NCBI GenBank assembly: GCA_023957275.1
Contig: JAMLHF010000049.1
Location: forward strand, 1 to 33,307
Source: Lentimicrobium sp.
Lineage (GTDB): Bacteria > Bacteroidota > Bacteroidia > Bacteroidales > Lentimicrobiaceae
Length of the DNA: 33,307 nt
Direction of reading: 5' to 3'
Positions 1 through 29,840 of this stretch are shown here, piece by piece. Below the pieces are notes generated by a model. That model was not told where the DNA came from, ran no database searches, and saw only the letters and a program-made list of their open reading frames with translations. The position numbers and the translations under genes were made by a program. Every line of letters begins with the position of its first letter. Within the stretch, counting starts at the first letter, position 1.

Positions 1-93
1 CGTCCCGTCCGTGCATAAAATCAGACTTAGCAAGGTTTAAACGTCTTTTTACACCTAACAGGTTAGAAGAAAACCTGTTAGGAGGATCCTGGT
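1..93 (+). repeat. Hairpin element, copy 1 (left end cut)
   Basis: The order is a head around GACGTCCCGTCCGTGC, a middle with AATCAGACTTAGCAAGG, then a perfect 11-bp hairpin at 54-82 (arms CCTAACAGGTT and AACCTGTTAGG, loop AGAAGAA) and the tail AGGATCCTGGT. It is nearly identical to copy 2. No T-tract follows the hairpin on either strand, so it is not a standard intrinsic terminator. Confidence 0.85.
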
Positions 94-124
94 CCCCTTG
101 TGGCCTTGTCTCCATCTCCCCCAT

Positions 125-226
125 TGGCGCTGACGTCCCGTCCGTGCATAAAATCAGACTTAGCAAGGTTTAAACGTCTTTTTACACCTAACAGGTTAGA
201 AGAAAACCTGTTAGGAAGATCCTGGT
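125..226 (+). repeat. Hairpin element, copy 2
   Basis: A complete element with its hairpin at 187-215. It differs from copy 1 essentially by one base in the tail (AAGATCCTGGT). It starts only about 30 bp after copy 1 ends, so the two form a near-tandem pair, and it leads directly into the octamer tract and the 22-bp array. Confidence 0.88.
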
Positions 227-375
227 CCCCTTGTCCCCCCGTCTCCTTGTCCCCTTGTCACTCTCTGGAGAGTTGTCCTTTTCCGTGAGGAAGCCGTCCC
301 TCGCCCCGGCCCCTGAGCGGCGGTTGTTGAGCGTAGCCGAAACAAGCCGAAGGGCCGTCCCTCGTCCCCCCTTCA

Positions 376-529
376 GCGTCCCTCGCCCCTCCTTCAAGCG
401 TCCCTCGCCCCTCCTTCAAGCGTCCCTCGTCCCTCCTTCCAGCGTCCCTCGCCCCTCCTTCAAGCGTCCCTCGCCCCTCCTTCAAGCGTCCCTCGCCCCT
501 CCTTCAAGCGTCCCTCGCCCCTCCTTCAA
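376..529 (+). repeat. 22-bp tandem array A, seven units
   Basis: Seven consecutive 22-bp units start at 376, 398, 420, 442, 464, 486 and 508. Each unit reads GCGTCCCTC, then GCCCCTCC or GTCCCTCC, then TTCAA or TTCCA. A degenerate unit (GCCGTCCCTCGTCCC) sits just before, at about 352-375. There are no unique spacers, so this is not CRISPR. A homologous array lies at 3088-3238. Confidence 0.9.
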
Positions 530-588
530 AACACGTTTGCATAACAAAAGGAATAAAACTATATTTGAGCATCCCAAACACAGGAAAT

Positions 589-1188
589 ATGTCACACTGG
601 CTGGAAGATGCGGAGCGCAACGCTACCGTCAGGAAATTATCAGAGAAAGAGGAACGGATCAGGCAGAAAATGCTGAGGGTACAGGAGAACTATACCGGAG
701 TGAAGACCCTTTACGACCCGTTTATTGACGGGCTTTACACCCTGATCAACCGGGCCAACAACCTGCCGGGGGAACGCCGCCGACTCTTCGGCATGATCGA
801 CGCACGGCCAAGGTCTTCGAAACTCGACAACCAGCTGAACATCTTCTCAAGCAGCCGCAAGCTTGAGCCCAGAAAGCTGTTTGGGTTGCTGCCGCCTTTG
901 TTTCCTGTGCAAATGAGGCTGGTAAGGGCTGTTTTTATCAGTGTATCCGATAAACCGGGCATGATCGGCATTGAGTTTAAGGAGAAGCGCAGCCGCAAGC
1001 GGCGCGACAACGGCTTGCATGAGCATTACCGCGGGGGTATCCATGTGCTTCACAGCTTTAAGGCAGAAAGCCTGAGCGATGAACTGTCGCTGGAGATCAT
1101 CGACTGGCTGGCTTTCAGCGCCGACCTGAAAGACCTCAGCTACCTCCTGTCCCATACGGGGAAAACCAGGATCATCAACGCGGACTAA
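589..1188 (+). CDS. Unrecognised 199-aa protein
   Basis: I do not recognise this family. The frame also opens at a TTG at 565, but I chose the ATG at 589 because AGGAAAT precedes it and the product then begins MSHWLEDAERN. The N-terminal 45 residues are highly charged and probably helical (a run of KLSEKEERIRQKMLR type). The middle holds a hydrophobic stretch around KLFGLLPPLFPVQMRLVRAV, followed by a basic segment (EKRSRKRRD). The C-terminus contains repeated leucines with aspartates. There is no signal peptide and no clear membrane span, so the protein should be cytosolic. It is transcribed away from the 22-bp array, which ends 60 bp upstream, and it converges on the next small gene. No function is inferred. 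Confidence 0.65.
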   Translation: MSHWLEDAERNATVRKLSEKEERIRQKMLRVQENYTGVKTLYDPFIDGLYTLINRANNLPGERRRLFGMIDARPRSSKLDNQLNIFSSSRKLEPRKLFGLLPPLFPVQMRLVRAVFISVSDKPGMIGIEFKEKRSRKRRDNGLHEHYRGGIHVLHSFKAESLSDELSLEIIDWLAFSADLKDLSYLLSHTGKTRIINAD

Positions 1189-1247
1189 GACGGCAAGGCG
1201 TTGTTGATCTTATTTTGCCGGCATACCCCGCAGAACCGGTGTTTGTG

Positions 1248-1517
1248 CTAATCCTGCACCGCCTTTTTTTTCCGGAAGACAAGGGGGATATTTTCGCGGT
1301 CGGGCGCACCGATTTCCACCAGTTCCCAGTCCTTATCGTACGCGTCGATGCGGTGCTTGAGCACGGTGAAGCGTTCCTGCGCCGAAGGAGCCGTCCCCTC
1401 CCAGTTAACAAGTTCCACGCGGTATTGCAGGGTTTTCTTCCGTCCGTTGATCCGGACCTCAATCTCCACATTCTGCTCCGGCTCAGTGTCGGGAATCAGG
1501 ATTACCACTTCTCTCAT
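1248..1517 (-). CDS. Unrecognised 89-aa cytosolic protein
   Basis: A short gene starting at an ATG (MREVVILIPDTEPEQNVEIE). The product alternates beta-like stretches (VVILIP, VEIEVRING, LQYRVELVNW) with charged turns, and contains a segment with ERFTVLKHRIDAYDKDWELVEIG. It has no signal peptide, cysteine motif or membrane span. It may be a small beta-rich ligand- or protein-binding fold, but I cannot name a family. The steady codon use over the whole frame and the convergent position against the 589-1188 gene support a real gene. It lies about 85 bp downstream of the GyrI-like gene on the same strand, so the two may be cotranscribed. Confidence 0.6.
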   Translation of the reverse strand: MREVVILIPDTEPEQNVEIEVRINGRKKTLQYRVELVNWEGTAPSAQERFTVLKHRIDAYDKDWELVEIGAPDRENIPLVFRKKKAVQD

Positions 1518-1601
1518 ATCAGCTGGATTTATAGTGTTTGAGTCATTGGATTTCAGTTATTTCCGGGTTCTGTCCTGATGCCCGAAGTGCCGCGTCCTGC
1601 C

Positions 1602-2156
1602 TTATTTTACCACTTCGAAAAGATAGATAATCGTTTTGTTGCTGTCGTAGATTTCCATAGCCGGCGCCTGTGCATAACCCTTGTCCTTCATGTATTTTTT
1701 CAGGGCCGGGTACACCTTAACAATGCCGGCAAATACCGAAAGCTGACTGCGAAATGGGATTTCGGAAGTAACATAAAGCTTTTCAGGGATTTCCATAATG
1801 GCATATTTACCGCTAAGGGTTTTGATGCGACTGGTGTCCGCCGGTTCGAGGATACACCCGGCAATACTGCGCAACTCCTCCCCGGGGGTTGTTTTGGGAT
1901 CATCGTAATAAATCCCGAAACCCCTGAAGGTTTCGATGTTATCTTCCTCTTTGAGCCGCTCATAGATACGGTCCATTATGCGGGCGGTACCTTTATACGG
2001 GCCGGTATGCTCTTCATAGACAAGCACAAAAGGGCCCATGGTTTTTTCATGGATTTCGGAATTGCTGAAAAAACCCGACCAGGCGAGGGCCAGAACAAGC
2101 AGGGTGGGGATCGTCAGCACGAAGATGATGATTGACACGCCGATTTTTCTTTTCAT
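1602..2156 (-). CDS. GyrI-like effector-binding domain protein with N-terminal membrane anchor
   Basis: The product is about 184 aa from the chosen ATG at 2156 (MKRKIGVSIIIF). Another in-frame ATG seven codons upstream would only extend the cytosolic tail. Residues about 5-28 form one membrane span or signal anchor. The rest resembles the GyrI-like small-molecule-binding fold: an early HTGPYKG segment, a central FRGFGIYYDDPKTTPGEELRS (in two parts, FRGFGIYYDD and PKTTPGEELRS), and a late VYPALKKYMKDKGY helix followed by EIYDSN. Proteins of this family bind hydrophobic or cationic ligands, and some are linked to heme or drug sensing. The domain should lie in the periplasm or at the membrane face. 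The ligand is unknown. A 1-kb repeat field lies upstream, and I saw no clear promoter in it. Confidence 0.7.
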   Translation of the reverse strand: MKRKIGVSIIIFVLTIPTLLVLALAWSGFFSNSEIHEKTMGPFVLVYEEHTGPYKGTARIMDRIYERLKEEDNIETFRGFGIYYDDPKTTPGEELRSIAGCILEPADTSRIKTLSGKYAIMEIPEKLYVTSEIPFRSQLSVFAGIVKVYPALKKYMKDKGYAQAPAMEIYDSNKTIIYLFEVVK

Positions 2157-2501
2157 GAGGAATGGGTTAACGCACATCTGCTACGGAAATATTTTATTCC
2201 AATAATGTGCCATGATCTGTAATAGATTGATATTCTGAACTAAACAATAATGACCTGCGGCAAAGGATATCAGGAACGAACACCCCTTGTCCGTAAACGT
2301 ACAGCCTGTTCAGCTGAAATCAGTTTTGCTATAGGTCAACAAAAGAACGGTTTTGAAAGGAATGTGTTCAAGCGGGATTGAAATACCCATAAACCTAACC
2401 GTACATCAACGGAAAGAGCCACGCATAAAGCTTCCGCCATGGCTGAGCAGGCTGCAATGACGCAAAGATGATTTTATACATCTTCTTTTCATTTTCAACC
2501 G

Positions 2502-2605
2502 CTGGCGCTGACGTCCCGTCCGTGCATAAAATCAGACTTAGCAAGGTTTAATCGTCCTTATTACACCTGACAGGTTAGAAGAAAACCTGTTAGGAGGATC
2601 CTGGT
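2502..2605 (+). repeat. Hairpin element, copy 3
   Basis: A full-length element with its hairpin at 2566-2594. The left arm reads CCTGACAGGTT, so one A-T pair becomes G-T, which would still pair as G-U in RNA. A CCTTGTCN octamer tract of about four units follows directly. Confidence 0.87.
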
Positions 2606-2644
2606 CCCCTTGTCGCCTTGTCTCCTTGTCCCCTTGTCCCCCGT

Positions 2645-2747
2645 AGACGCTGACGTCCCGTCCGTGCATAAAATCAGACTTAGCAAGGTTTAAACGTCTT
2701 TATTACACCTAACAGGTTAGAAAAAAACCTGTTAGGAGGATCCTGGT
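2645..2747 (+). repeat. Hairpin element, copy 4
   Basis: A full-length element with its hairpin at 2708-2736 and loop AGAAAAA. It is followed by octamers, a CTCTGGAGAG palindrome and about one and a half units of the 22-bp repeat (roughly 2806-2845). Confidence 0.87.
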
Positions 2748-2856
2748 CCCCTTGTCGCCTTGTCTCCTTGTCACTCTCTGGAGAGTTTTCCTTTTCCGCG
2801 AGGAAGCCGTCCCTCGTCCCTCCTTTCAGCGTCCCTCGCCCCCTTGTCACCCGCGT

Positions 2857-2959
2857 TGGCGCTGACGTCCCGTCCTTGCATAAAATTAAACTTAGCAAGG
2901 TTTAATCGTCTTTATTACACCTAACAGGTTAGAAAAAAACCTGTTAGGTGATTCCTGGT
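2857..2959 (+). repeat. Hairpin element, copy 5
   Basis: A full-length element. The tail reads GTGATTCCTGGT, which lengthens the stem to 13 bp (CACCTAACAGGTT with AACCTGTTAGGTG, 2918-2950). Together with the array that follows, it forms a block of about 380 bp homologous to 125-529. Confidence 0.87.
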
Positions 2960-3087
2960 CTCCTTGCCTCCCCGTCTCCTTGTCCCCTTGTCACTGTCTG
3001 GAGAGTTTTCCTTTTCAGTGAGGAGGCCGTCCCTCGCCCCGGCCCCTGAGCGGCGGTTGTTGAGCGTAGCCGAAACAAGCCGAAGGG

Positions 3088-3238
3088 CCGTCCCTCGTCC
3101 CCCCTTCAGCGTCCCTCGTCCCCCCTTCAGCGTCCCTCGCCCCTCCTTCAAGCGTCCCTCGTCCCTCCTTCAAGCGTCCCTCGCCCCTCCTTCAAGCGTC
3201 CCTCGTCCCTCCTTTCAGCGTCCCTCGTCCCTCCTTCA
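3088..3238 (+). repeat. 22-bp tandem array B, about seven units of 21-22 bp
   Basis: Units start near 3088, 3109, 3130, 3152, 3174, 3196 and 3218 and share GCGTCCCTC plus a CCTCC-TTCA end with array A. Unit length varies between 21 and 22 bp. The last unit supplies the stop codon of the YfcC gene (TGA, read on the minus strand at 3238-3236), so the array abuts that coding sequence without a gap. Confidence 0.88.
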
Positions 3239-4837
3239 GAATCCGTTCAGCTGCATCGTCACCGTTGGGATCAGCAGCAGGAAACCCAGGATAACCAGGA
3301 TGATCATCAGGGGGGTGACCCATTTCACCCATTTGTTAAAAGGGATCTTTGCCACGCCCAGGGCGCCGATCAGCACGCCGGAGGTCGGGGTGATCATATT
3401 GGTAAAGCCATCGCCGAACTGAAAAGCCATTACAGTTGCCTGTCGCGAAAGTCCGATCAGATCGGAGAACTGCGACATGATAGGCATGGTAAGGGCAGCT
3501 TTTGCCGAGCCGGAGGGAATAAACACATTGATGGCCGTCTGCATCACATACATGCTGCCTACGGTTGCCACCTTGCCCATATCTGCCATGGCGCCGGAGA
3601 CATTGTGAAGCAATGTGTCGATAATTTGTCCGTTGTTGAGGATGATGATGATGCCCCCCGCCAGTCCCACAACCAGCGCGGCGCCGGTGATGTCCTTCAC
3701 CCCTTCGAGAAACAGCCGGGTGATGGTGTTGGGAGAATAATCCATTGAAATGCCTGAGAAGATGCCCAGCGCCATAAACAGGGTGGCAATTTCCATAACG
3801 TACCAGCCGTAGCCCATTACCCCCACGATCAGCATCAGGATGGTAAACGAGAGCATATTGAGGATAAAGAAGTGCACCGATTTACGCAGGGAAAAGTAGC
3901 CGCCAATGGCAAATGCCACGGCCAGCACGGGAAAAACAGGCCAGACTACTGAAGCGTTGCCTACAGTGAGACGGGTGGTGGACAAGGCAAAAGCACAATA
4001 AGCAAACACCGCGGTAAGTATGATCCAGCTGACCCAGGCAGCCTTCGGGGTTTCGAACTTTATGGCTTCTGTGGACTCCTCCTGTCGGTTTCTCCAGTAT
4101 GCATCTTCTTCATATACAGGCGATTTCTGCGGATGCTTCCGGATGCGGTGCATATAACGCAGTATCCATGCGATGCCGACGATATTGATCACCACCCAGC
4201 AGAAGAAACGGTATTCAATGCCTGAAAAGAGCGGGAGGTGCGACAGTCCCTGGGCGATGCCTATGGTGAAGGGGTTGAGCAGGGCGCCTGCAAACCCCAG
4301 GGCGGCGGCCACATAACACATATACAGTCCCGTGATGGAGTCATAACCCATGCTGATGGACAATGGTACGAATATAATTACGAAGGCGATGGTTTCTTCG
4401 CTCATGCCGAAAGTTGCCCCGAAAATACTGAAAAGCAATACGATAAGCGTAACGATGATATTATCGACCCCCAGGCGGCGGATGGTGCGCCTGTTTTCAA
4501 GACGGCGTGCCCTTTTGAGAAAAGAAAGTATTCCAACGTCTATTGCTTTGCTGTGGTTCATGATCCAGAAAGCGCCTCCGATCATCAGGATAAAGACAAT
4601 GATATCCGCCTTGTCGACAAATCCGTCGAAAAATGCCGAGAACACCTGCCAGGTCTGGGGCTGGCTTTCGGTATAACTAAAGGAGTCATCGGCAATCACT
4701 TCGCGCTCTGTCCCGTTGATTTCCACCACAGTACGCTCATAGCGTCCCCCGGGAATTACCCAGGTCAGAAATGCCGAGAAAAGGATCAGATAGAAGATGA
4801 TTACATAAGTATGCGGGAATTTCCTTGTTTTGGCCAT
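3236..4837 (-). CDS. YfcC family membrane transporter
   Basis: The product is 533 aa and highly hydrophobic, with about a dozen predicted membrane spans starting at residue 10. It resembles the YfcC/DcuC-type carrier family, secondary transporters placed near C4-dicarboxylate and basic amino-acid carriers. Family-like segments are the opening HTYVIIFYLILFSAFLTWV with PGGRY, the EETIAFVIIFVPLSISMGYD helix, GGIIIILNNGQIIDT, and the re-entrant-like FIPSGSAKAALTMPIM followed by FGDGFTNMITPTSGVLIG. Such transporters often take up peptides or amino acids, but the substrate cannot be read here. The ATG at 4837 lies 19 bp downstream of a TATTTTTG box. It is probably a single-gene transcript, with array B at its 3' end. 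Confidence 0.85.
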   Translation of the reverse strand: MAKTRKFPHTYVIIFYLILFSAFLTWVIPGGRYERTVVEINGTEREVIADDSFSYTESQPQTWQVFSAFFDGFVDKADIIVFILMIGGAFWIMNHSKAIDVGILSFLKRARRLENRRTIRRLGVDNIIVTLIVLLFSIFGATFGMSEETIAFVIIFVPLSISMGYDSITGLYMCYVAAALGFAGALLNPFTIGIAQGLSHLPLFSGIEYRFFCWVVINIVGIAWILRYMHRIRKHPQKSPVYEEDAYWRNRQEESTEAIKFETPKAAWVSWIILTAVFAYCAFALSTTRLTVGNASVVWPVFPVLAVAFAIGGYFSLRKSVHFFILNMLSFTILMLIVGVMGYGWYVMEIATLFMALGIFSGISMDYSPNTITRLFLEGVKDITGAALVVGLAGGIIIILNNGQIIDTLLHNVSGAMADMGKVATVGSMYVMQTAINVFIPSGSAKAALTMPIMSQFSDLIGLSRQATVMAFQFGDGFTNMITPTSGVLIGALGVAKIPFNKWVKWVTPLMIILVILGFLLLIPTVTMQLNGF

Positions 4838-4855
4838 AGCTTGTGCATTGAATTA

Positions 4856-4863
4856 CAAAAATA
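4856..4863 (-). promoter_or_regulatory. Putative -7 box of the YfcC gene
   Basis: On the minus strand TATTTTTG matches the Bacteroidota -7 form TAnnTTTG and lies 19 bp before the ATG. No convincing -33 TTTG was found at normal spacing. Confidence 0.4.
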
Positions 4864-5357
4864 GAAATTCCCGGCAATCACCAGGTAATACAGAGAGAAA
4901 AGACAGGATATATACCTGTGGAGCAGCATGATTTACACCCTGAGGCCTGGGCGGCTAAATGAGGAAAGCAATCCTTGAATTCAGACATGCTGATGTTATA
5001 TCCGGGTGTTCAGGTGTTCGGGTGCCCGTGTCCGTTAAATGTTGCGCAATGTGAAAATCCCGCCATTAGTAATACATATTGTCAAATTTATGTCGGTCTG
5101 ATGTGCTCTGCTCCCGGCAAAGCAGCCGGGACAGGTTGTGCCCTAATGTGTCCTAATGTGTCTATTGTGGTTCAATGATTCACATGGTAAACTCCTTGGC
5201 ACACGTCGGGTGATATACGCGAACTTGGCGTATAGAAGGTTCTCTCTGCGGCCCTCTTCGAAAAATCTCTGCGGACTCTGCGGTTAAGTATTTTTTACCG
5301 CAAAGGCCGTGGAGCAATCGCAATCCCGATCGCCATCGGGAGCGCGGAGGGGCTTCC

Positions 5358-5402
5358 GGGAAAAAAGAAGACCCGACAAGCCGGAAAAAGACTTGTCAGG
5401 TC
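5358..5402 (-). terminator. Intrinsic terminator downstream of the metallophosphoesterase
   Basis: On the minus strand an 11-bp stem (GACCTGACAAG with CTTGTCGGGTC, including one U-G pair in RNA) is followed directly by TTCTTTTTTCCC. It lies about 155 bp beyond the metallophosphoesterase stop, so it would end that transcript after a long 3' leader. Confidence 0.6.
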
Positions 5403-5557
5403 AGTCGTTGATTGTTTCAGCCAGGCCCTGTGGGGAAGTCAGAAATTGCGGGTTCTCAAAATAATCTTTGCGTCGTGGCGTCTTTGCGCGGGGTACGTTA
5501 TGCTTTCTGCCTGGCATGCGCCGGAAGACGCTTGCCACCAATCCGCTTCAGAAAACC

Positions 5558-6709
5558 CTACCTGAATCTAAGCAATATATTTACCACTTCAGGCCGGTGG
5601 CCGGTTCGCACCGGCGGGCCCCAGCCACCAAATCCCGGGGATACGTAAATATGAGTGTTTCCCTTCTTTTTGTAGCCCATACTCACCTCGTACACGGCGC
5701 GGGTGATAAAGTTGAGCGGCCACAATTGTCCGTGGTGGGTGTGTCCCGACAGCTGCAGATCCACTCCGGCTTCCATGGCTTTCTCCAGTGCAAAGGGCTG
5801 ATGGTCGAGCAGGATTACCGGCCGGCTGAGGTCTGCGCCCAGCAGCAGTTCCTTCACCTCTTTCCGGGATTTTCCGCTGAAGCGGTTTTTATCGCGGTCT
5901 TCGCGTCCGGCCACATAAAAAGCATCCGCAACCTTCACCACGCTGTCGCGCAACATGGTAATGCCATGCGCTTCAAGGTATTTTACCGCCGCTTCGGCAC
6001 CGCCGATATACTCATGGTTTCCGGTGATGCCGTAAACGCCCAGCGGAGCTTTGAGGCGGGTGAGCGCTTCGCCCAGGTTCTGACGGATTACGGGAGCAAG
6101 GTCCTCATCCACAATATCGCCGGCCAGCAATATAATATCCGGATTCAGGGCATTGATCGAATCCACCAGCTTCCCTGTGCGCCTTGGCCCGATCAGCGTA
6201 CCCATATGGATATCCGAAGCCATGGCAATCTTCAGCTCCTTCAGCCCGCTGGCTTCTTTCGGGATGTCGAGTACCAGCTTAGTCGTTTTCGGGGTAATGG
6301 CATTGATATAACCGGCCAGCACAATGACGGCTGTTGCTGCCATACCCAGGTAAAGGACATTAAGCTTCCCGCGTGAAGTATGCAGTATCTGCGGTAAAAA
6401 GCCGGTGAAATGGTCGGCCAGGCGAATAAGGTCGATCAGCACAACCATAAGGAACCCATACAGCATCACGGCAAGCCAGAAGGCCCCCACCCAGGTGAGC
6501 ACATCACTCAGCAGCGAAAGATAGGCCCGCTCCAGAAAACGGCCGGCCACATAAGCCGAGGCCAGGATCAGAAAACCCCAGCGGAACCATCCCCTGAAGC
6601 TGCTGTCGGCAGGAATGGCCTGCATTGACCTTGCGTAAATATAATAGTTGACCGAAGCGTATATCAGCAGCACAATGCTGAAAAAGACCAGAAACTGATA
6701 GGATTTCAT
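5558..6709 (-). CDS. Membrane-anchored metallophosphoesterase, YkuE-like
   Basis: The product is 383 aa. About four N-terminal membrane spans (roughly residues 5-25, 42-60, 72-95 and 117-137) are followed by a calcineurin-like phosphoesterase domain. Metal-binding motifs are in order: D166-x-H168 in ASDIHMG, D198 in AGDIV, N231-H232-E233 in GNHEY, H293 in LDHQP, and H313/H315 in SGHTHHGQ. The core is therefore intact and should hold two metal ions. Relatives include YkuE and UDP-diacylglucosamine-type hydrolases, so a lipid or nucleotide phosphate substrate near the membrane is plausible but unproven. The gene is divergent from guaC and appears to be transcribed alone. Confidence 0.88.
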   Translation of the reverse strand: MKSYQFLVFFSIVLLIYASVNYYIYARSMQAIPADSSFRGWFRWGFLILASAYVAGRFLERAYLSLLSDVLTWVGAFWLAVMLYGFLMVVLIDLIRLADHFTGFLPQILHTSRGKLNVLYLGMAATAVIVLAGYINAITPKTTKLVLDIPKEASGLKELKIAMASDIHMGTLIGPRRTGKLVDSINALNPDIILLAGDIVDEDLAPVIRQNLGEALTRLKAPLGVYGITGNHEYIGGAEAAVKYLEAHGITMLRDSVVKVADAFYVAGREDRDKNRFSGKSRKEVKELLLGADLSRPVILLDHQPFALEKAMEAGVDLQLSGHTHHGQLWPLNFITRAVYEVSMGYKKKGNTHIYVSPGFGGWGPPVRTGHRPEVVNILLRFR

Positions 6710-6938
6710 TATTTGACAATCATTAATTAAGAGCAGTATAAACAGTTATAGATGTATTAAGTTTTAAGCGAACCCTGATACATACTTCCCGTGACTGCGC
6801 AAAGCGGCCGGATGCCCGCTCCCCTGCATACACAGTTACCTGCGGAAGAGCAAGTCATATTTTCTTTATAACAGCCCTGAAATTCTGAAAGATCTGCTCC
6901 GGAATTCTATCCTGCAAGAATGAAAAACATGAATGCAT

Positions 6939-6946
6939 TATCTTTG
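6939..6946 (+). promoter_or_regulatory. Putative -7 box of guaC
   Basis: TATCTTTG matches TAnnTTTG. It overlaps the codons of a longer open frame starting at 6933, which argues that translation really starts at the ATG at 6960, leaving a leader of only about 8-10 nt. Confidence 0.5.
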
Positions 6947-6959
6947 TAAAAAAACAGGT

Positions 6960-8000
6960 ATGAGAATAGAATATGAGATCAAACTGGGCTTTAAGGACGT
7001 GATGTTCAGACCGAAACGTTCAACATTGAAAAGCAGGAGCCTGGTAAGGCTCGAACGTACTTTCCGGATGCTGCATAACCACACGGAATGGACAGGCATT
7101 CCGGTAATGGCTGCAAATATGGACACAACAGGCACTTTTGACATGGCTCTAGCGCTGTTCAGCATGAAGCTTTTTACCGCCATCCATAAGCATTACACGC
7201 CGGATGAATGGAAACGGTTTCTGGATGCCGCACCACCGGGCATTGAGGACTTTATCGCGGTGAGTACAGGTACAGGGCAGGCTGATTTTGAAAAGCTGTC
7301 AGAAATCATTACAGCAAATCCCCGGCTCAGATTTCTGTGTATTGATGTGGCCAATGGCTATTCAGAGCATTTTGTAGCTTTTGTGAAGCAGGCGCGCAAA
7401 AGGTTTCACGACAAGGTGATCATTGCCGGGAATGTGGTGACCGGTGAGATGGTTGAAGAATTGCTGTTATCCGGCGCCGACATTATTAAAGTCGGCATCG
7501 GGCCGGGATCGGTGTGTACCACCAGGGTAAAAACCGGAGTTGGATACCCGCAATTGTCGGCCATCATCGAATGCGCCGATGCAGCTCACGGTCTTGGCGG
7601 ACTGATTATCAGCGACGGAGGCTGCTCCACGCCCGGCGATGTAGCCAAAGCCTTTGGCGCCGGGGCCGATTTTGTGATGCTCGGGGGGATGCTTGCCGGA
7701 CACGATGAGAGCGGCGGGGAACTTATTGAAAAAGACGGTAAAAAGTTCAGAATGTTCTATGGGATGAGCTCGGCTACAGCCATGGAAAAACATGTGGGCG
7801 GCGTAGCCGATTACCGCGCCAGCGAAGGCAAAACGGTAGAAGTCCCTTACCGTGGCAAAGTTGAAAATACCGTTCAGGATATACTTGGCGGCCTGCGCAG
7901 CACCTGTACCTATGTCGGGGCTTCCCAACTGAAAGAGCTGAGTAAGAGAACTACATTCATACGCGTGGCGGAACAGGAAAATCAGGTCTATACCGATTAG
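6960..8000 (+). CDS. guaC: GMP reductase
   Basis: The product is 346 aa from the ATG at 6960, close to the 347 aa of E. coli GuaC. It would reduce GMP to IMP with NADPH, releasing ammonia, in cytosolic purine interconversion. The IMPDH/GMPR barrel is complete: [11 protein letters not shown] near residue 50, [24 protein letters not shown], then the catalytic loop [11 protein letters not shown] with Cys186, the phosphate-binding ISDGGC (Asp219-Gly220-Gly221) and the flap-region [12 protein letters not shown]. There is no CBS insert, which together with the length separates it from IMP dehydrogenase. The frame is also open from 6933, but the promoter box at 6939-6946 favours the later ATG. It is divergent from the metallophosphoesterase and followed by repeats. 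Confidence 0.93.
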
Positions 8001-8018
8001 GAATTTTGCCTGAATTTG

Positions 8019-8088
8019 ATTTATTCAAGTATAAACGGCTTTATTACACCTAACAGGTTATAAGAAAACCTGTTAGGTGAATCCTGGT
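8019..8088 (+). repeat. Hairpin element, copy 6 (head lost)
   Basis: Only the right half of the element is recognisable: degenerate sequence, then the 13-bp hairpin at 8047-8079 with loop ATAAGAA and the tail AATCCTGGT. It begins within 20 bp of the guaC stop. Confidence 0.82.
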
Positions 8089-8093
8089 ATCGG

Positions 8094-8197
8094 TCGGCGC
8101 GGACGTCCCATCCGTGTAAAGAGTTTGACTCATCAAAGTCTAAGCGTCTCTTTTACACCTAACAGGTTATAAGAAAACCTGTTAGGTGAATCCTGGT
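8094..8197 (+). repeat. Hairpin element, copy 7
   Basis: A full element of the second subtype: head GGCGCGGACGTCCCATCCG, middle AAAGAGTTTGACTCATC, and a 13-bp hairpin at 8156-8188 with loop ATAAGAA. It is separated from copy 8 by only a few bases, so copies 6-8 form a tandem row with a period of about 108 bp. Confidence 0.88.
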
Positions 8198-8202
8198 ACC
8201 GG

Positions 8203-8306
8203 TCGGCGCGGACGTCCCATCCGTGTAAAGAGTTTGAATTATCAAGGTCTAAACGTCCTTTTTACACCTAACAGGTTAGAAGAAAACCTGTTAGGTGAAT
8301 CCTGGT
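8203..8306 (+). repeat. Hairpin element, copy 8
   Basis: A full element of the second subtype with its hairpin at 8265-8297 and loop AGAAGAA. The loop differs from copy 7 by one base while the arms are identical. Confidence 0.88.
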
Positions 8307-8333
8307 AACGGTTGGCGGGGACGTCCTAATCCC

Positions 8334-8443
8334 TTGTTCGGCGTAGTCTGTGACTACGTCGAAACAAATCCGAACCGGAGCGAAGCGGAGTTCACCGAAG
8401 GTAAATCCAAAATCCGATCCCGATAACGATCGAAACCCCGGCT
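8334..8443 (+). repeat. Element II, copy a
   Basis: It starts TTGTTCGGCGTAG and contains a 7-bp hairpin CGTAGTC-tgt-GACTACG inside a wider imperfect inverted repeat (TTGTTCGGCGTAG against CTACGTCGAAACAA). It continues as AATCCGAACCGGAGCGAAGC, AGTTCACCGAAGGTAAATCC and a CGATAACGATCG-containing end before CCCCGGCTG. Confidence 0.85.
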
Positions 8444-8567
8444 GCACCGGGCGGATTGCCATGAAAATGCATATGAAGGTGCACGTTGATACGACCGTTG
8501 CCCCAGATAACTGCATTATTCCGGATTACCGCCCCTGACGGTAATCTGACCGGGTGATAAATACATT

Positions 8568-8601
8568 CTAATTAAACTCCCGCAGCGACTCCTGCACCCC
8601 C
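8568..8601 (-). pseudogene. Duplicated 3' tail of the aldehyde oxidoreductase gene
   Basis: These bases repeat the last ten codons and stop of the neighbouring gene (GVQESLREFN then TAG on the minus strand) and are cut off from any start. They are a by-product of the 268-bp tandem duplication and not a functional gene. Confidence 0.85.
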
Positions 8602-8711
8602 TTGTTCGGCGTAGTCTGTGACTACGTCGAAACAAATCCGGACCGGAGCGAAGCAGAGTTCACCGAAGGTAAATCCAAAATCCGATCCCGATAACGATCG
8701 AAACCCCGGCT
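8602..8711 (+). repeat. Element II, copy b
   Basis: This is copy a carried along in the 268-bp duplication, with small differences (GGACCGG for GAACCGG, GCAGAG for GCGGAG). Confidence 0.85.
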
Positions 8712-8791
8712 GCACCGGGCGGATTGCCATGAAAATGCATATGAAGGTGCACGTTGATATAACCGTTGCCCCAGTTAACTGCATTATTCCG

Positions 8792-8814
8792 GATTACCGC
8801 CCCTGACGGTAATC
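8792..8814 (-). terminator. Possible transcript-end hairpin of the aldehyde oxidoreductase gene
   Basis: An 8-bp stem GATTACCG/CGGTAATC with loop CCCCTGA lies 22 bp past the stop. No U-rich tail follows on the minus strand, so it may be an end-stabilising hairpin and not an intrinsic terminator. The same hairpin is duplicated at 8524-8546. Confidence 0.35.
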
Positions 8815-8835
8815 TGACCGGGTGATAAATACATT

Positions 8836-10704
8836 CTAATTAAACTCCCGCAGCGACTCCTGCACCCCCTTGTGTATCTCATACCAGAAGTCGAGCGCGG
8901 CTTCTTTGGGGTTGGCTTCAAAGGCATCCTGCCATTTATTGAACTCCTTGCTGTCCAGTCCCTCTTCCTTCTTGCGGCGCAGAAAGCTGGCAATATATTC
9001 GAAATTCCGCTCTGATTCCCAGAATACCGAGCTGTTTCGGCCATTGATCCGGCTGGCGGTAAAGCGGATGGATTCCTTAAATTTTTCTCCCAGTCCGTAA
9101 AGCGATTCCACGATCTCGGGCACCATCTCTTCAGCCCACAGCCGGTGAAAACGGCAGATACCCATGTTGTCAATGATCAGTTCGGCCAGCATACGCTGTG
9201 CATTGACCTTACCCAACTCACGGGGTGTAACAAATTCATCACCGTAATACATGTAATATTTCCCCATGATGGCCATGGGCGACAGTGCGCCCGGGGTCCA
9301 GTACTGGTTGGGGACCATCCATCCCTTTCGCGCATAAGCGGTATATACGAACCGGTTCAGCAGGTTGACCCCTTTCGCGCGTGAAAGCCTGCGCCCGTAT
9401 TTGCGGGCACCTTCTTTCAGATTGATGGTGCCTGCAATGATGCTGTCGAGGATTTCACATCCCAGCAGGGCATTGTGCATGGAATCTTTTACGATATCAA
9501 AGTTCTGCGGGCTAAATACCGGTTTTGCACTGACTCCCAGATCGGCAGGCTGCAGCTCCCCGGCATCGAGGCATTCCATCAGCCACGAGATCACCCCGCC
9601 CACCGAGATGGCATCGAAGCCGAGCATATCGGCATGATGGTTCAGCTTTTCGGCAGCCCGCTGGTCAAAGATGCCGCTCAGCGGACCCATGGTCTGGTAG
9701 GGCTCGTAATCCTTCTTGTATTCGTCGCGCAGCTTCTTACAGACAGCAGCGCAGGGTTCTCCGCAGGTAGCCTGCTGCCTGGTTTTGATGGTCTCCTCAT
9801 TGAACTGCTTCAGGTAATGGTCGAGGATAAACTCCTTTTGCAACTTCAGGCGGAGTTCTTTACTCCAGTTCATCGACTGATAATTAAACGCCAGCAGTTT
9901 GCTGCCCATGGTGGCATAGTTTACGCCGAAAGTGCCCCCGGTATCGAAGTTTGGATCAAACCGGTATTTGGTGGTAATTTCAAGGTCTTTGGCTGCCAGT
10001 TTCATGGCATAGCGGTTTTCGAACCATTCATCGGCCACCTTACGGTCGCGGAAGTCTTCATCGATATGGGTACCCCCGTAAATTACCGCTGCAATGCCGT
10101 GTTCCTGAAGTAATGCCGAGCCAAAGCCACCCCTGCCTGCCCAGGTATCCACATTTGAAAGCGCCCCGCGTTTAACCGGCACAGAGGCAACCCCGCCGAA
10201 ATCGGTAACCATCGCCGCAGGCCCCGTGGCAAGAATACGTGGTTCGTTTTCGTAACGCGGCCGGTATTGCTCAAAAACATAATCCATCAGGGAATAGATG
10301 CCCCCCCGGCCTTCGTACCAAATCCGGTTAAGATCGAGCGGAGCAATTTCAACCTGAATCTCTTCCCCGTGCACACGGTTAAGGTAAAGTACGGAAGGTA
10401 CCGGCGCTTTGCCGACAATGGAAAGCATATTGATGCCAAGATTGTCGAAAACCAACCCGGCCCCGCCCATGGAGGAGATGTAAAAACCGCCCCAGCAGGG
10501 AGAAAAGCCGGTGAATATCAGCCGGTTTGATCCCGGAAAAATAGAACCGGAGAGCAATCCGACACCAATGTTCAGGCTTTTGTAACGCCCGGCCAGGTGT
10601 AGACCGAGATCGACAGGCCCGAAGAAATCACCGACCTTGTATTTCCTGATGCGGTAAAATGCATCGGTTGCATTGACAAAAAGCACTTTAAGGGTAGAGT
10701 CCAT
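8836..10704 (-). CDS. Aldehyde ferredoxin oxidoreductase family protein
   Basis: The product is 622 aa, typical of the family (about 600-650), and cytosolic. Family enzymes oxidise aldehydes to acids with ferredoxin as acceptor, using a tungsten or molybdenum bis-pterin cofactor and one [4Fe-4S] cluster. The N-terminal pterin-binding domain shows GFSPCWGGFYISSMGGAG and the GATGPAA-like LATGPAAMVTDFGG. Probable cluster ligands are Cys314, Cys318 and Cys322 (TCGEPCAAVC) and Cys517 in DNMGICRF. The first two cysteines are Cx3C here, while the classic Pyrococcus enzyme has Cx2C, so this is probably a divergent subfamily whose substrate I cannot name. It starts at the ATG at 10704, 29 bp downstream of a TATCTTTG box. 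Its last codons were duplicated into the 3' flank. Confidence 0.88.
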   Translation of the reverse strand: MDSTLKVLFVNATDAFYRIRKYKVGDFFGPVDLGLHLAGRYKSLNIGVGLLSGSIFPGSNRLIFTGFSPCWGGFYISSMGGAGLVFDNLGINMLSIVGKAPVPSVLYLNRVHGEEIQVEIAPLDLNRIWYEGRGGIYSLMDYVFEQYRPRYENEPRILATGPAAMVTDFGGVASVPVKRGALSNVDTWAGRGGFGSALLQEHGIAAVIYGGTHIDEDFRDRKVADEWFENRYAMKLAAKDLEITTKYRFDPNFDTGGTFGVNYATMGSKLLAFNYQSMNWSKELRLKLQKEFILDHYLKQFNEETIKTRQQATCGEPCAAVCKKLRDEYKKDYEPYQTMGPLSGIFDQRAAEKLNHHADMLGFDAISVGGVISWLMECLDAGELQPADLGVSAKPVFSPQNFDIVKDSMHNALLGCEILDSIIAGTINLKEGARKYGRRLSRAKGVNLLNRFVYTAYARKGWMVPNQYWTPGALSPMAIMGKYYMYYGDEFVTPRELGKVNAQRMLAELIIDNMGICRFHRLWAEEMVPEIVESLYGLGEKFKESIRFTASRINGRNSSVFWESERNFEYIASFLRRKKEEGLDSKEFNKWQDAFEANPKEAALDFWYEIHKGVQESLREFN

Positions 10705-10732
10705 GTCCCGGATCTTTAATGGTACAATTTAT

Positions 10733-10740
10733 CAAAGATA
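10733..10740 (-). promoter_or_regulatory. Putative -7 box of the aldehyde oxidoreductase gene
   Basis: The minus strand reads TATCTTTG, a full match to TAnnTTTG, 29 bp before the ATG. No clear -33 TTTG lies at the usual distance. Confidence 0.45.
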
Positions 10741-10804
10741 AGGCTTGGAAACATGAATTAAAAGTAACCGTGAGGGATTTTGAGGTCCATACACCGGTTG
10801 CTCC

Positions 10805-10879
10805 GTTTCAGCGTAGTCTGTGACTACGTCGAAACAAATCCGAACCGGAGCGAAGCGGAGTTCACCGAAGGTAAATCCG
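10805..10879 (+). repeat. Element II, copy c
   Basis: GTTTCAGCGTAGTC pairs with GACTACGTCGAAAC in a 12-of-14 hairpin, followed by the conserved AACCGGAGCGAAGC and ACCGAAGGTAAATCC parts. The left end differs from the other copies (CCGTTTCAG for TTGTTCGG). It ends 7 bp from the stop codon of the DUF4476 gene. Confidence 0.82.
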
Positions 10880-10886
10880 AACCAGC

Positions 10887-11978
10887 TTACTCCCGGCCTT
10901 CCAGGAACTTCATCAGCTCCTCCTTGCTGCTGCTGAAGGTAAACACATCGGCAACCTGGTAATAATTATCCCGGTCGGTGGTAAATTCCCAGGCAAATTT
11001 GGCCATCTCAAGCCTTGAATCGTCAAAACTGAAGAGTTTCAGCATCTCCCTGATCTGCACCGTGGTGAAGCACTGTTTGCTGCGCAGGATCTGCTTGGCC
11101 AGGGTGACTTTGGTGCTGTTGAAGCTCTCCTTCCGGATGGATGCCATGATCTGGTTAAACTCCTCGTCCGGCACAAAGCAGGGAGGCTGCTCTACCGGAA
11201 TATCAGCGGGTAACGGTTGATTGATCAGCTCATTGTAAGCGGCTTTGTTGGGGATATGGGCAAAGAGCTGGGCGCCATACTGCAGGTTTCCCGGATCGAA
11301 AATGGTATTGATTGCATTGCGGAAAAATACCAGGCGGTTGCCTTCCGATTGAAGGAGAGAAGAAAGCTTCATGGCCTGGGATACGCTCAGGCAGTTGTTC
11401 TGGGCGATCTGAGAAAGCAGCAGCGCCCGGTTACTCTCCGAGGTGTTGGACTGCACCTGGGCAGCCAGCCTGAGAAAATCATCCTCGCGTATGGGGTAGT
11501 TGCAGTTGGAAGGCCCGTGGTAATTTTCGAACACCGGGTATTCCAAAGCAGGAAAATTCAGGCTCAGAGGCGGTTCATAAGGAGGCAGGTAATCGACAGG
11601 ACGGCTTTCGACCGACTTTACATAGTCGTGCAGCATGAAAACCGTGGAGAAATAAGCAAAAGCATCATATACATAATAGAAGTTTTCCCGGTCAACCGTG
11701 TTGTGCCAGGCGGCCTGTGCAAAATTGAGGCGGCTGAAGTCATCGATAAACAGTTCGGCGATCGAGCGTACCTGCTCCACCGACAGACAATTCCCGGTTG
11801 CGACTGCCACCGCCACTTTCAGTTTCAGTTCTTCGGTTGGCTGCAGCGAAACGGAACGCTGTTTCTGCCTGAAGATATGATCGGGAAGCGGTACATCGCA
11901 CCGCTGTGGCTGCGGGCGCTGGCCCAGCACCAGCATGGCCGGGATAATAAGGATAAGGGTAAAAATGCTTGCTTTCAT
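10887..11978 (-). CDS. Secreted protein with three DUF4476 repeats
   Basis: I chose the ATG at 11978 because the product then begins with a signal peptide (MKASIFTLILIIPAMLVLG). The frame stays open upstream to 12107 but that part is unlike protein. The mature 340-odd residues hold three related helical domains: about 30-130, 165-270 and 280-363. Each carries a motif like NCLSVEQVRSI, NCLSVSQAMKL or QCFTTVQIREML, followed by a block with LxxAK-W and a D-R-x-N-YY segment in domains 1 and 3. This matches the DUF4476 family, common in Bacteroidota, usually as a single C-terminal domain and of unknown function. The middle copy has lost part of the D-R-x-N-YY signature. It should be periplasmic or secreted. 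Element II copy c lies directly at its 3' end. Confidence 0.82.
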   Translation of the reverse strand: MKASIFTLILIIPAMLVLGQRPQPQRCDVPLPDHIFRQKQRSVSLQPTEELKLKVAVAVATGNCLSVEQVRSIAELFIDDFSRLNFAQAAWHNTVDRENFYYVYDAFAYFSTVFMLHDYVKSVESRPVDYLPPYEPPLSLNFPALEYPVFENYHGPSNCNYPIREDDFLRLAAQVQSNTSESNRALLLSQIAQNNCLSVSQAMKLSSLLQSEGNRLVFFRNAINTIFDPGNLQYGAQLFAHIPNKAAYNELINQPLPADIPVEQPPCFVPDEEFNQIMASIRKESFNSTKVTLAKQILRSKQCFTTVQIREMLKLFSFDDSRLEMAKFAWEFTTDRDNYYQVADVFTFSSSKEELMKFLEGRE

Positions 11979-12157
11979 AGTTACTTGTCTGATTATGTGT
12001 ATGCTGATTAAATTTATCCAATACCCAAAAACTGCCCTCCCTGTCTCAATCATTGCCCCCTTCACCGGCTGCAGATGTACCTGCCCTTGCATTCCCCCTT
12101 GCTCCAAACCCTTGTTCTGTGTCTCCCTCTCTCACTTCCTCTTTCCTACTTTCTTTT

Positions 12158-12628
12158 TCATGACTCCTTCATCCACTCAAAAGTAAGGTAATGTCCGCCA
12201 TTCATACCTGCGCGTGTATATACCTGTTGTGCCCTGAGGTTGGTCCGGTCCACATAAAGCCTGATACCGGAGACCTCTTTGCGTTGCATCACCATGTTTT
12301 TCACATAATCATACATCATGCCGAAAATGCCGGATTTACGGTTTCCGGGCAAAACATATACCGATTGCAGCCACCATACCCATGCATTGCGCCAGTCACT
12401 CCACTCCGGGGTTACCATCAGGCAGCCGGCACGAATGCCTCCGGCTTCAGCCAGAAGATAAAAACCGCGGCCGGAATCGTTAAAAACCGCCTCTACGCCC
12501 TTTTCAACAATATGCGGTTCCAGCCTGAGCTGTTCGGTTTCGAACGCCATGCTGAGCTGACTGTCAATGATAAACTGAATATCAGCCTCGGTGGCGGGGC
12601 GGATGTTGACGGATGGCAAAGTTGTCAT
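12158..12628 (-). CDS. GNAT family N-acetyltransferase
   Basis: The product is 156 aa, the usual length for a single GNAT domain that transfers acetyl from acetyl-CoA to an amine. It begins with the beta1-alpha1 pattern IRPATEADIQFI. The core strand region AGCLMVTPEWSDW leads to LQSVYVLPGNRKSGIFGMMY, which fits motif A (the pyrophosphate-binding turn is RKSGIF, with Gly-Ile-Phe in place of a second glycine). It ends with the typical LYVDRTNLRAQQVYTRAGM, matching the beta6-alpha4 segment found in many members. The acceptor substrate is unknown. The DUF4476 gene follows 180 bp downstream on the same strand. The intervening gap is pyrimidine-rich and shows no terminator. Confidence 0.85.
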   Translation of the reverse strand: MTTLPSVNIRPATEADIQFIIDSQLSMAFETEQLRLEPHIVEKGVEAVFNDSGRGFYLLAEAGGIRAGCLMVTPEWSDWRNAWVWWLQSVYVLPGNRKSGIFGMMYDYVKNMVMQRKEVSGIRLYVDRTNLRAQQVYTRAGMNGGHYLTFEWMKES

Positions 12629-12737
12629 TACAACAGGGATATATTATGCAAAGTAAATGGATAGCGACGAAAAATAACAGAATTTTTTCTGCTCCATAAG
12701 AATCTATGAAAAAAACATGACCTCACTTATCAGGTCA

Positions 12738-12863
12738 ACGCAAACGTCCCGTCCGTGATCCCGATTCCTTTGCAGCGTAACGGATGCAGCATTTAATTCA
12801 CTTCGTTAAAGCGTCTTTATTACACCTAACAGGTTAGAAGAAAACCTGTTAGGAGAATTCTGG
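12738..12863 (+). repeat. Hairpin element, copy 9 (divergent middle)
   Basis: The head (AAACGTCCCGTCCGTG) and the hairpin (12825-12853, loop AGAAGAA) are well kept. The middle is longer and unrelated to the other copies, and the tail reads GAATTCTGG. The arms are nevertheless unchanged. Confidence 0.8.
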
Positions 12864-12918
12864 AAACCGGTTGGTTCTAACGTCCTGAGCATTCTCCCCT
12901 GTTGGCGCATACGTTCCC

Positions 12919-13020
12919 TTGTTCGGCGTAGTCTGTGACTACGTCGAAACAAATCCGAACCGGAGCGAAGCGGAGTTCACCGAAGGTAAATTCAATCCCT
13001 ATAACGATCGGGACCCCGGC
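12919..13020 (+). repeat. Element II, copy d
   Basis: It starts CCCTTGTTCGGCGTAG like copies a and b and keeps the CGTAGTC-tgt-GACTACG hairpin, AACCGGAGCGAAGCGGAG and ACCGAAGGTAAATTC. It ends ATAACGATCGGGACCCCGGC and joins hairpin element copy 10 without a gap, showing that the two families can be directly fused. Confidence 0.85.
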
Positions 13021-13123
13021 TGGCGCAGACGTCCCGTCCGTGCAAAGAGTTTGACATATCGAGGTCTAAGCGTCTCTATTACACCTAACAGGTTAGAAGA
13101 AAACCTGTTAGGAGGATCCTGGT
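13021..13123 (+). repeat. Hairpin element, copy 10
   Basis: A full-length element with its hairpin at 13084-13112. It is a hybrid of the two subtypes: head and middle (AAAGAGTTTGACATATC) as in copies 7 and 8, tail AGGATCCTGGT as in copies 1-4. Confidence 0.88.
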
Positions 13124-29463: not shown

Positions 29464-29704
29464 CAGTATCACACTTTACGTTTCAACATTTCAAATACCT
29501 GGCTGACGCGGACGTCCCGTCCAGCGTGTTCAGGTATTAAGGTGTTAAGATATTCAAGTGCTCACGTCCGTATGAAGCAACTTACCCGGCCCTCATCGGC
29601 TGATGGCAACCGTGAGAAATTACTAATCACCATTTAACCTCTCATTTTTTTCATCCTGCATGTGAATCCTGCAACTTTCCACCTACTTTTTACTACCTGC
29701 TACC

Positions 29705-29781
29705 TACTTCTTACTTCATACTTCTTACTTCATACTTCTTACTTCTTACTTCTTACTTCTTACTTCTTACTTCTTACTTCA
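29705..29781 (+). repeat. 7-bp microsatellite, eleven units
   Basis: Eleven consecutive units of TACTTCT or TACTTCA. The array is pyrimidine-rich on the plus strand and frame-shifting by design of its length, so it is not coding. Slippage could vary its unit number between strains. Confidence 0.9.
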
Positions 29782-29840
29782 CTCCCTCTCCCCTTCACTC
29801 TCTACCAGGCTGGCAGGGTCGTCCCCTCCGTGCCCCTTTT

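Follow-up and report, generated by a model that had tools for sequence, protein, structure and literature searches.

The ten hairpins of the window, a 33,307-nt stretch that is the entire contig C90 of a draft Lentimicrobium genome (G000; 4.41 Mb, 145 contigs), very probably (we put it at about 0.87) belong to a REP family and so are the non-autonomous footprint left by a RAYT; RAYTs are single-tyrosine HUH transposases in the IS200/IS605 superfamily. The physical association of REPs with RAYT genes, the diversity of the family, its dispersal and changes in its tandem copy number were all observed directly. The initial annotation had described the hairpin as REP/MITE-like or as an RNA-structural element under selection. 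Its first half stands and can be made more specific, the repeat being a REP of a RAYT clade whose genes are flanked by such palindromes; its second half is not supported (see below).

Hairpin copies, composite arrays and turnover

All ten hairpins were located where they had been annotated (Table 1). Nineteen of their 20 arms are exact and one is G·T-compatible. Searching the window at up to one mismatch gave 21 arm matches, 20 of which form the ten arm pairs; shuffled sequences are expected to give 0.46. Across the genus the repeat has a shared core of about 70 bp, made up of ATCAAGGTTTAAACGTCTTTATTACA, the stem CCTRACAGGTT, the loop AGAAGAA, AACCTGTYAGG and then TGGATCCTGGT. The consensus hairpin has a stem of 11-13 bp (-16.5 kcal/mol). 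Its 5' flank usually reads TTACA or CACA on one strand and ATCCA or similar on the other, and the window hairpin lacks the GTAG/GTGG tetranucleotide that marks the 5' foot of canonical REPs.

Table 1. Positions of REP hairpins and related sequences in the window.
Feature	Position	Strand	Remarks
REP-A copy 1	54..82	+	CCTAACAGGTT-AGAAGAA-AACCTGTTAGG; contig start cuts its element
REP-A copy 2	187..215	+	
REP-A copy 3	2566..2594	+	arm position 4 is G, giving a G·T pair
REP-A copy 4	2708..2736	+	tandem to copy 3; single copy at G001 site
REP-A copy 5	2920..2948	+	tandem
REP-A copy 6	8049..8077	+	loop ATAAGAA
REP-A copy 7	8158..8186	+	109-bp tandem; single copy at G001 site
REP-A copy 8	8267..8295	+	109-bp tandem
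REP-A copy 9	12825..12853	+	
REP-A copy 10	13084..13112	+	
REP-D head of copy 2	126..147	+	GGCGCTGACGTCCCGTCCGTGC; close palindrome flanks RAYT L142 in G005
REP-C hairpin	8341..8358	+	GCGTAGTC-TGT-GACTACG; flanks own-genome RAYT L054, contig C46
REP-C, further place	8609..8626		
REP-C, further place	10811..10828		
REP-C, further place	12926..12943		
Sister-family copy, decayed	5370..5402	+	GACCCGACAAGCC-ggaaaaa-GACTTGTCAGGTC

The arms, first described as nearly invariant, are so at most stem positions; position 4 varies. Among 80 genus copies, chosen by a pattern that fixes every arm position but 4 and 5, it is A-T in 45, G-C in 13, A·C in 13, G·T in 8 and T-A in 1. Free variation of the arms was not found genome-wide: comparison of a covariance-model search, which tolerates arm changes, with the exact pattern showed exact arms in 31 of 35 copies in G000 and in 33 of 37 in its two-contig sister genome, G001.

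The element of about 100 bp that was initially delimited is not a single unit. The repeat of about 109 bp joins sequences from two REP families and a third is scattered among them; the intergenic regions are patchworks of three or more families. The other two families, REP-C and REP-D, each flank a RAYT of their own. Heads related to REP-D precede copies 3-5 and 7-10, with a partial head at 1-14. The head GGCGCGGACGTCCCGTCCGTGC forms a palindrome of its own, and a different RAYT (L142) in genome G005 has a close variant of it alongside. REP-C has four places in the window and 14 exact places in G000, and its palindrome also flanks L141, the G005 relative of RAYT L054. Copies of a sister family, of the type found beside RAYTs L155 and L156, are present in G000 and G001.

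Other repeats were seen in the window. Positions 8331-8866 are a 268-bp tandem duplication, 98% identical, which includes a GTAGTC REP; positions 312-572 and 3066-3282 are intergenic arrays of a 22-bp unit like CGTCCCTCGCCCCTCCTTCAAG, and similar arrays lie on contig C135 of G000 and at 2009 kb of G001. An array of CTTACTTCATACTT-like repeats occupies 29675-29786, and the orthologous G005 site has no array and carries a REP-A copy instead.

Copies 3-5 of the window correspond to one copy in G001, which is about 93-96% identical here; copies 6-8 likewise correspond to one, and copies 1-2 align with one. Because G001 has single copies at these multi-copy sites, the ten copies do not represent ten independent events. 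At another site G001 has three copies (354-bp unit) and the window two; one G001 copy has no window counterpart; and contig C135 of G000 has a copy where G001, with flanks 97-98% identical, has other repeats. The comparisons between genomes gave only messy block replacement; at no site did a precise empty counterpart mark a clean insertion. One recent segmental duplication, which had been named as a possible refutation, accounts for part of the copies within sites and not for the dispersed set. Copy number would now change mainly through tandem duplication inside composite arrays shared with two other REP families.

The exact-arm pattern was found 31, 34, 38 and 15 times in G000, G001, G013 and G005, respectively, and 0-4 times in the other 15 of the 19 genus genomes; nine of the 19 have no copy and three have one. 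The G013 copies are a variant: eight on contig C4 read CCTTCCAGGTT, and a stricter R/Y pattern matches none in that genome. A covariance model built from 49 copies gave, at E below 1e-8, at least 35 strong copies in G000 (11 contigs), at least 37 in G001 and at least 22 in G005; 150 of about 3,000 candidates per genome were scored, so these counts are lower bounds. Sixty-one of the 393 Bacteroidales genomes searched contain the hairpin core, and a reversed control pattern matches 1. At most of the inspected loci from other genera the repeat is a bare palindrome, often AGACCTRACAGGTTTTNAAAACCTGTYAGGTCT, and the loop is 3 nt in most of the genera inspected versus 7 nt in the window hairpin. Among named records, the exact hairpin was found in nine stretches of Bacteroidales metagenome assemblies, one Lentimicrobium sp. 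The exact pattern was absent from viral contigs, and searching a plasmid collection gave no match. At 61 sites analyzed in three genomes, five overlap a crude ORF call and the rest lie between ORFs, as befits a dispersed extragenic multi-copy palindrome.

In G001, a 65-kb stretch (C1:646711-712014) holds 20 of the 37 copies together with several GTAGTC REPs packed there, and is partly syntenic with the window and with contig C136.

Association with RAYT genes

No transposase had been noticed near the hairpins, and a Pfam scan of 19 window ORFs agreed with this. A first test with PF01797, covering the window's own genome and the 30 best matches in 20 hairpin-rich genomes, found mostly IS200-type genes without the hairpin, which lay near one of the 30 best matches, at a distance of 1.3 kb. 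The apparent refutation of a RAYT link was overturned by 20 of the remaining, mostly weak, matches of about 200 aa: L146, L152 and L154 have palindromes with a CAGGTT core, L144 has the sister type, and most of the others have different palindromes or none.

Palindromes with arms of at least 11 bp were found within 250 bp of 26 of the 30 best RAYT-clade loci, versus 3 of 26 IS200-type controls; they lie on both sides at 17 of the 30 versus 1 of the 26, and have an AGGTT...AACCT core at 19 of the 30 versus none of the 26. The search profile itself included nine of the 30 RAYT loci, three others were known beforehand and 18 were fresh; 14 of the fresh loci have a palindrome, two being doubtful (in L218 the sequence is unrelated and in L219 it spans an N gap). 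The control set began with 30 loci, of which four, L120-L123, were excluded for being weak or fused matches; control gene ends are those of the domain match of about 344 bp, with the strand assumed.

The profile search detected the RAYT clade in 127 of the 393 genomes, a lower bound given that mostly 8 candidates per genome were scored. Hairpin and RAYT occur together in 43 genomes, the hairpin alone in 18, the RAYT alone in 84 and neither in 248 (Fisher p 3e-11, phylogeny ignored).

A REP-associated tyrosine transposase, for which the initial annotation proposed to look elsewhere, is thus present in relatives; the window's own genome has such genes only beside other hairpins. The same-genus RAYTs L155 (G013) and L156 (G018), 86% alike, are flanked by arrays such as GACCTAACAAGTT-7 nt-AACTTGTGAGGTC, with a loop of the same 7-nt purine type as in the window. 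Four stem-loops, GACCTCACAAGTT-gaaagaa-AACTTGTTAGGTC and variants, stand on either side of the G013 gene (contig C50), and the G018 relative has five upstream and one downstream. In G186, G235 and G298, RAYTs lie between palindromes that have the window arms, CCTAACAGGTTT, one of the G298 copies being decayed; in G070 such a palindrome lies on one side of the gene. No RAYT with exactly CCTRACAGGTT and a 7-nt loop at its flanks was found, and the putative RAYT link of the window's own variant rests on the palindromes of its closest relatives.

Three proteins of the clade match NF047646, REP-associated tyrosine transposase, at E 6e-19 to 1e-15 and with 58-68 bits, below the curated cut-off of 80. 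Residues H57, H59 and Y125 are conserved in 12 of 12 aligned RAYTs; a sequence search of the Protein Data Bank gave no match to the G013 protein. In a midpoint-rooted tree these RAYTs form one clade (100/100), apart from the three RAYTs of the GTAGTC, GGCGCGGACG and TGCGCGCGTC palindromes. Beside different RAYTs the REP arms change on both sides together (CTAAC/GTTAG, CTGAC/GTCAG, CTCAC/GTGAG, CTTCC/GGAAG and CATTC/GAATG). These joint changes are diversity and not independent proof of pairing, because the REPs were picked as palindromes.

Palindromes also occur inside the RAYT reading frame at eight of the 30 loci (L212, L216, L217, L218, L219, L220, L221 and L225), about 185-230 nt from the match start and without a stop. 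L149/L183 (G001:C1:545-548 kb) are two near-identical tandem RAYT genes; TGCGCGCGTC and GTGTTGGTACGCGTC palindromes surround and separate the two. L052 (G000:C76:22223-25564) matches Y1 genes, contains one in-frame TAG and adjoins several TGATTACCCCCGGC-type palindromes.

G000 and G001 have one clade RAYT each, flanked by ACCATTCAGGTTT palindromes and not by the window hairpin; the two G000 copies of this palindrome both lie at that RAYT. The G000 gene, on contig C137, was missed by PF01797 at E 0.001 and recovered with the G013 protein. No clade RAYT was found in the draft genome G005, nor a partner RAYT for the window family in G000, G001 or G005, and the family looks orphan in the window's genome. 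Draft gaps could hide a cognate RAYT in G000 and G005, less easily in the two contigs of G001. Eighteen of the 61 hairpin-bearing genomes gave no clade RAYT at E 1e-20, among them G043 with 21 hairpins and G282 with 17, the latter having no PF01797 match either; so orphans are common or the link between RAYT and hairpin is looser.

Strand orientation and alternative explanations

The strand of each hairpin was defined by its purine loop. All 34 pairs of neighbours less than 600 bp apart are direct and none is inverted, and 29 of 29 pairs at 600-20,000 bp are direct. A REPIN proper is an inverted REP pair acting as a mobile unit, from which the close neighbours seen here differ.

Strand composition was analyzed at the 61 sites, which comprise 93 of 94 copies from three genomes (G000:C87:33656, at a contig end, was left out), after about 400 bp to either side of each copy had been masked. 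The hairpin lies on the locally C-rich strand at 55 sites, on the G-rich strand at 4 and in flat sequence at 2, a count in which the three genomes share ancestral sites and about half of the G001 sites fall in one 65-kb stretch. By independent region the G001 bias is 7 to 1 over about eight regions (two-sided sign test, approximately 0.07). Samples of 12-20 kb along G001 revealed large arms of one skew sign, which the copies follow: they are on the minus strand at 646-712 kb (positive arm) and on the plus strand in negative arms, at 1487, 1604 and 2850-2861 kb as well as at 1240-1371 kb of C2. The site at 2267 kb is the exception, and 3034-3064 kb is nearly flat. By the usual rule the C-rich strand would be the lagging one; coding-strand excess, used as a check of the leading strand, gave a weak signal. 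GTAGTC palindromes (23 of 23 copies) and GGCGCGGACG palindromes (14 of 15) show the same bias but for the most part sit in the same arrays, and the sister family has no consistent bias (19 copies G-rich, 7 C-rich, 2 flat).

Gene orientation was rejected as the cause of the bias: at the 49 sites with both flanking genes called, as crude longest ORFs, the hairpin is in the same sense as both genes at 17, antisense to both at 16, between convergent genes at 10 and between divergent genes at 6.

In the proposed mechanism a RAYT would once have recognised the hairpin in its folded, single-stranded DNA form, cleaved the DNA next to it and inserted copies at other places, probably where the replication fork exposes single-stranded DNA, favouring one replication strand. 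Such cutting and pasting would explain the dispersal, the conservation of the stem and the single orientation relative to replication. The cognate RAYT may later have been lost from this genome. Members of the IS200/IS605 superfamily are described as using single-stranded DNA at the replication fork, with one strand favoured (PMC6006769). GTAG requirement differs among RAYTs tested in vitro, so its lack here does not alone exclude RAYT action (PMC8266576).

That the stem is kept because a transcript must fold, as structural RNA, an mRNA-stability hairpin or a terminator, is very improbable. The strong stem (11-13 bp, -16.5 kcal/mol) and the position of some copies close after gene ends would fit such a role, but among the 80 copies A·C mispairs (13) are as frequent as G·T (8) in the + reading, every gene context is occupied without a preferred sense, and Rfam contains no matching family. 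Covariation within the genus, tried as proof of selection on RNA, does not exceed that of shuffles (50 of 500 reach the score). Both the balance of A·C and G·T and the absence of a gene-sense bias suggest that the molecule that folds is DNA and not RNA.

A hairpin serving as a double-stranded DNA site for a protein that organises the chromosome or is linked to replication, in the manner of dif, KOPS and Chi, would likewise keep one orientation per replication arm. The bias at 55 of 61 sites and the clustering of 20 of 37 G001 copies in 65 kb agree with this, but such a site is very unlikely here: nine of 19 genus genomes have no copy of the exact pattern and three have one, related palindromes adjoin RAYT genes, and the bias comes down to about eight independent G001 regions. 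The shared orientation of the copies also recalls an integron-like attC/cassette array, as do the CCTAAC...GTTAGG ends, which resemble attC core-site ends. We regard this as next to negligible, since the 29-nt hairpin lacks the bulges that attC hairpins carry, 109-bp units are too short for cassettes and related palindromes stand beside RAYTs.

Origin as REPs of a RAYT is the preferred reading. A more specific proposal is offered tentatively, at somewhat worse than even odds: the hairpins may belong to a GTAG-less Bacteroidales branch of RAYT/REP systems whose REPs always keep to the same strand with respect to replication (the C-rich one, presumably lagging-sense), direct and never inverted, regardless of transcription, the matching RAYT having then been lost. 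If true, this would be genomic evidence that RAYT-driven spread of REPs uses single-stranded DNA at the replication fork.

Comparison with known systems

A literature search with the window arm letters returned no REP-related title among the short-arm matches listed, nor any for the long arms, and among the records retrieved none was a strand analysis of Bacteroidales REPs. The hairpins resemble RAYT/REP systems (REPtrons; TnpA-REP subclasses, Quentin et al. 2018, PMC6006769) in that an HUH/Y1 gene is flanked by dispersed palindromes. A palindrome inside the RAYT frame, as at eight of 30 loci here, has a like feature reported in that paper for TnpA-REP subclass 2.4. Unlike the REPtrons described there, the window hairpin has no GT[AG]G foot and combines a perfect 11-13 bp stem with a 7-nt loop.

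CGTC-tagged REPs have been reported in five phyla including Bacteroidetes, with no dedicated transposase described (PMC3733652). CGTC does occur about 10 nt before many window-type stems, but those REPs have stems of 8-9 bp, loops of 4-5 nt and the tag at the repeat end, compared with 11-13 bp, 7 nt and a non-adjacent tag here; the window hairpin thus falls outside that class. Tandem arrays in Pseudomonas fluorescens SBW25 also mix two REP groups at fixed spacing, and point forward in one part of the chromosome and backward in another (PMC3116915); opposite array orientation at different chromosome positions was found here too.

Earlier work has described palindrome-flanked RAYTs, among them atypical ones of Bacteroidetes (PMC6006769); what is new is this hairpin family, notable for its missing GTAG tag and its strand bias. 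For these "atypical" REPs a sequence family and partner proteins are now available. The variants (CTAAC, CTGAC, CTCAC, CTTCC, CATTC; ACAGG, ACAAG) each stand beside their own RAYT, which makes hairpin-protein recognition testable, and a strand bias without inverted pairs bears on how REPs move.
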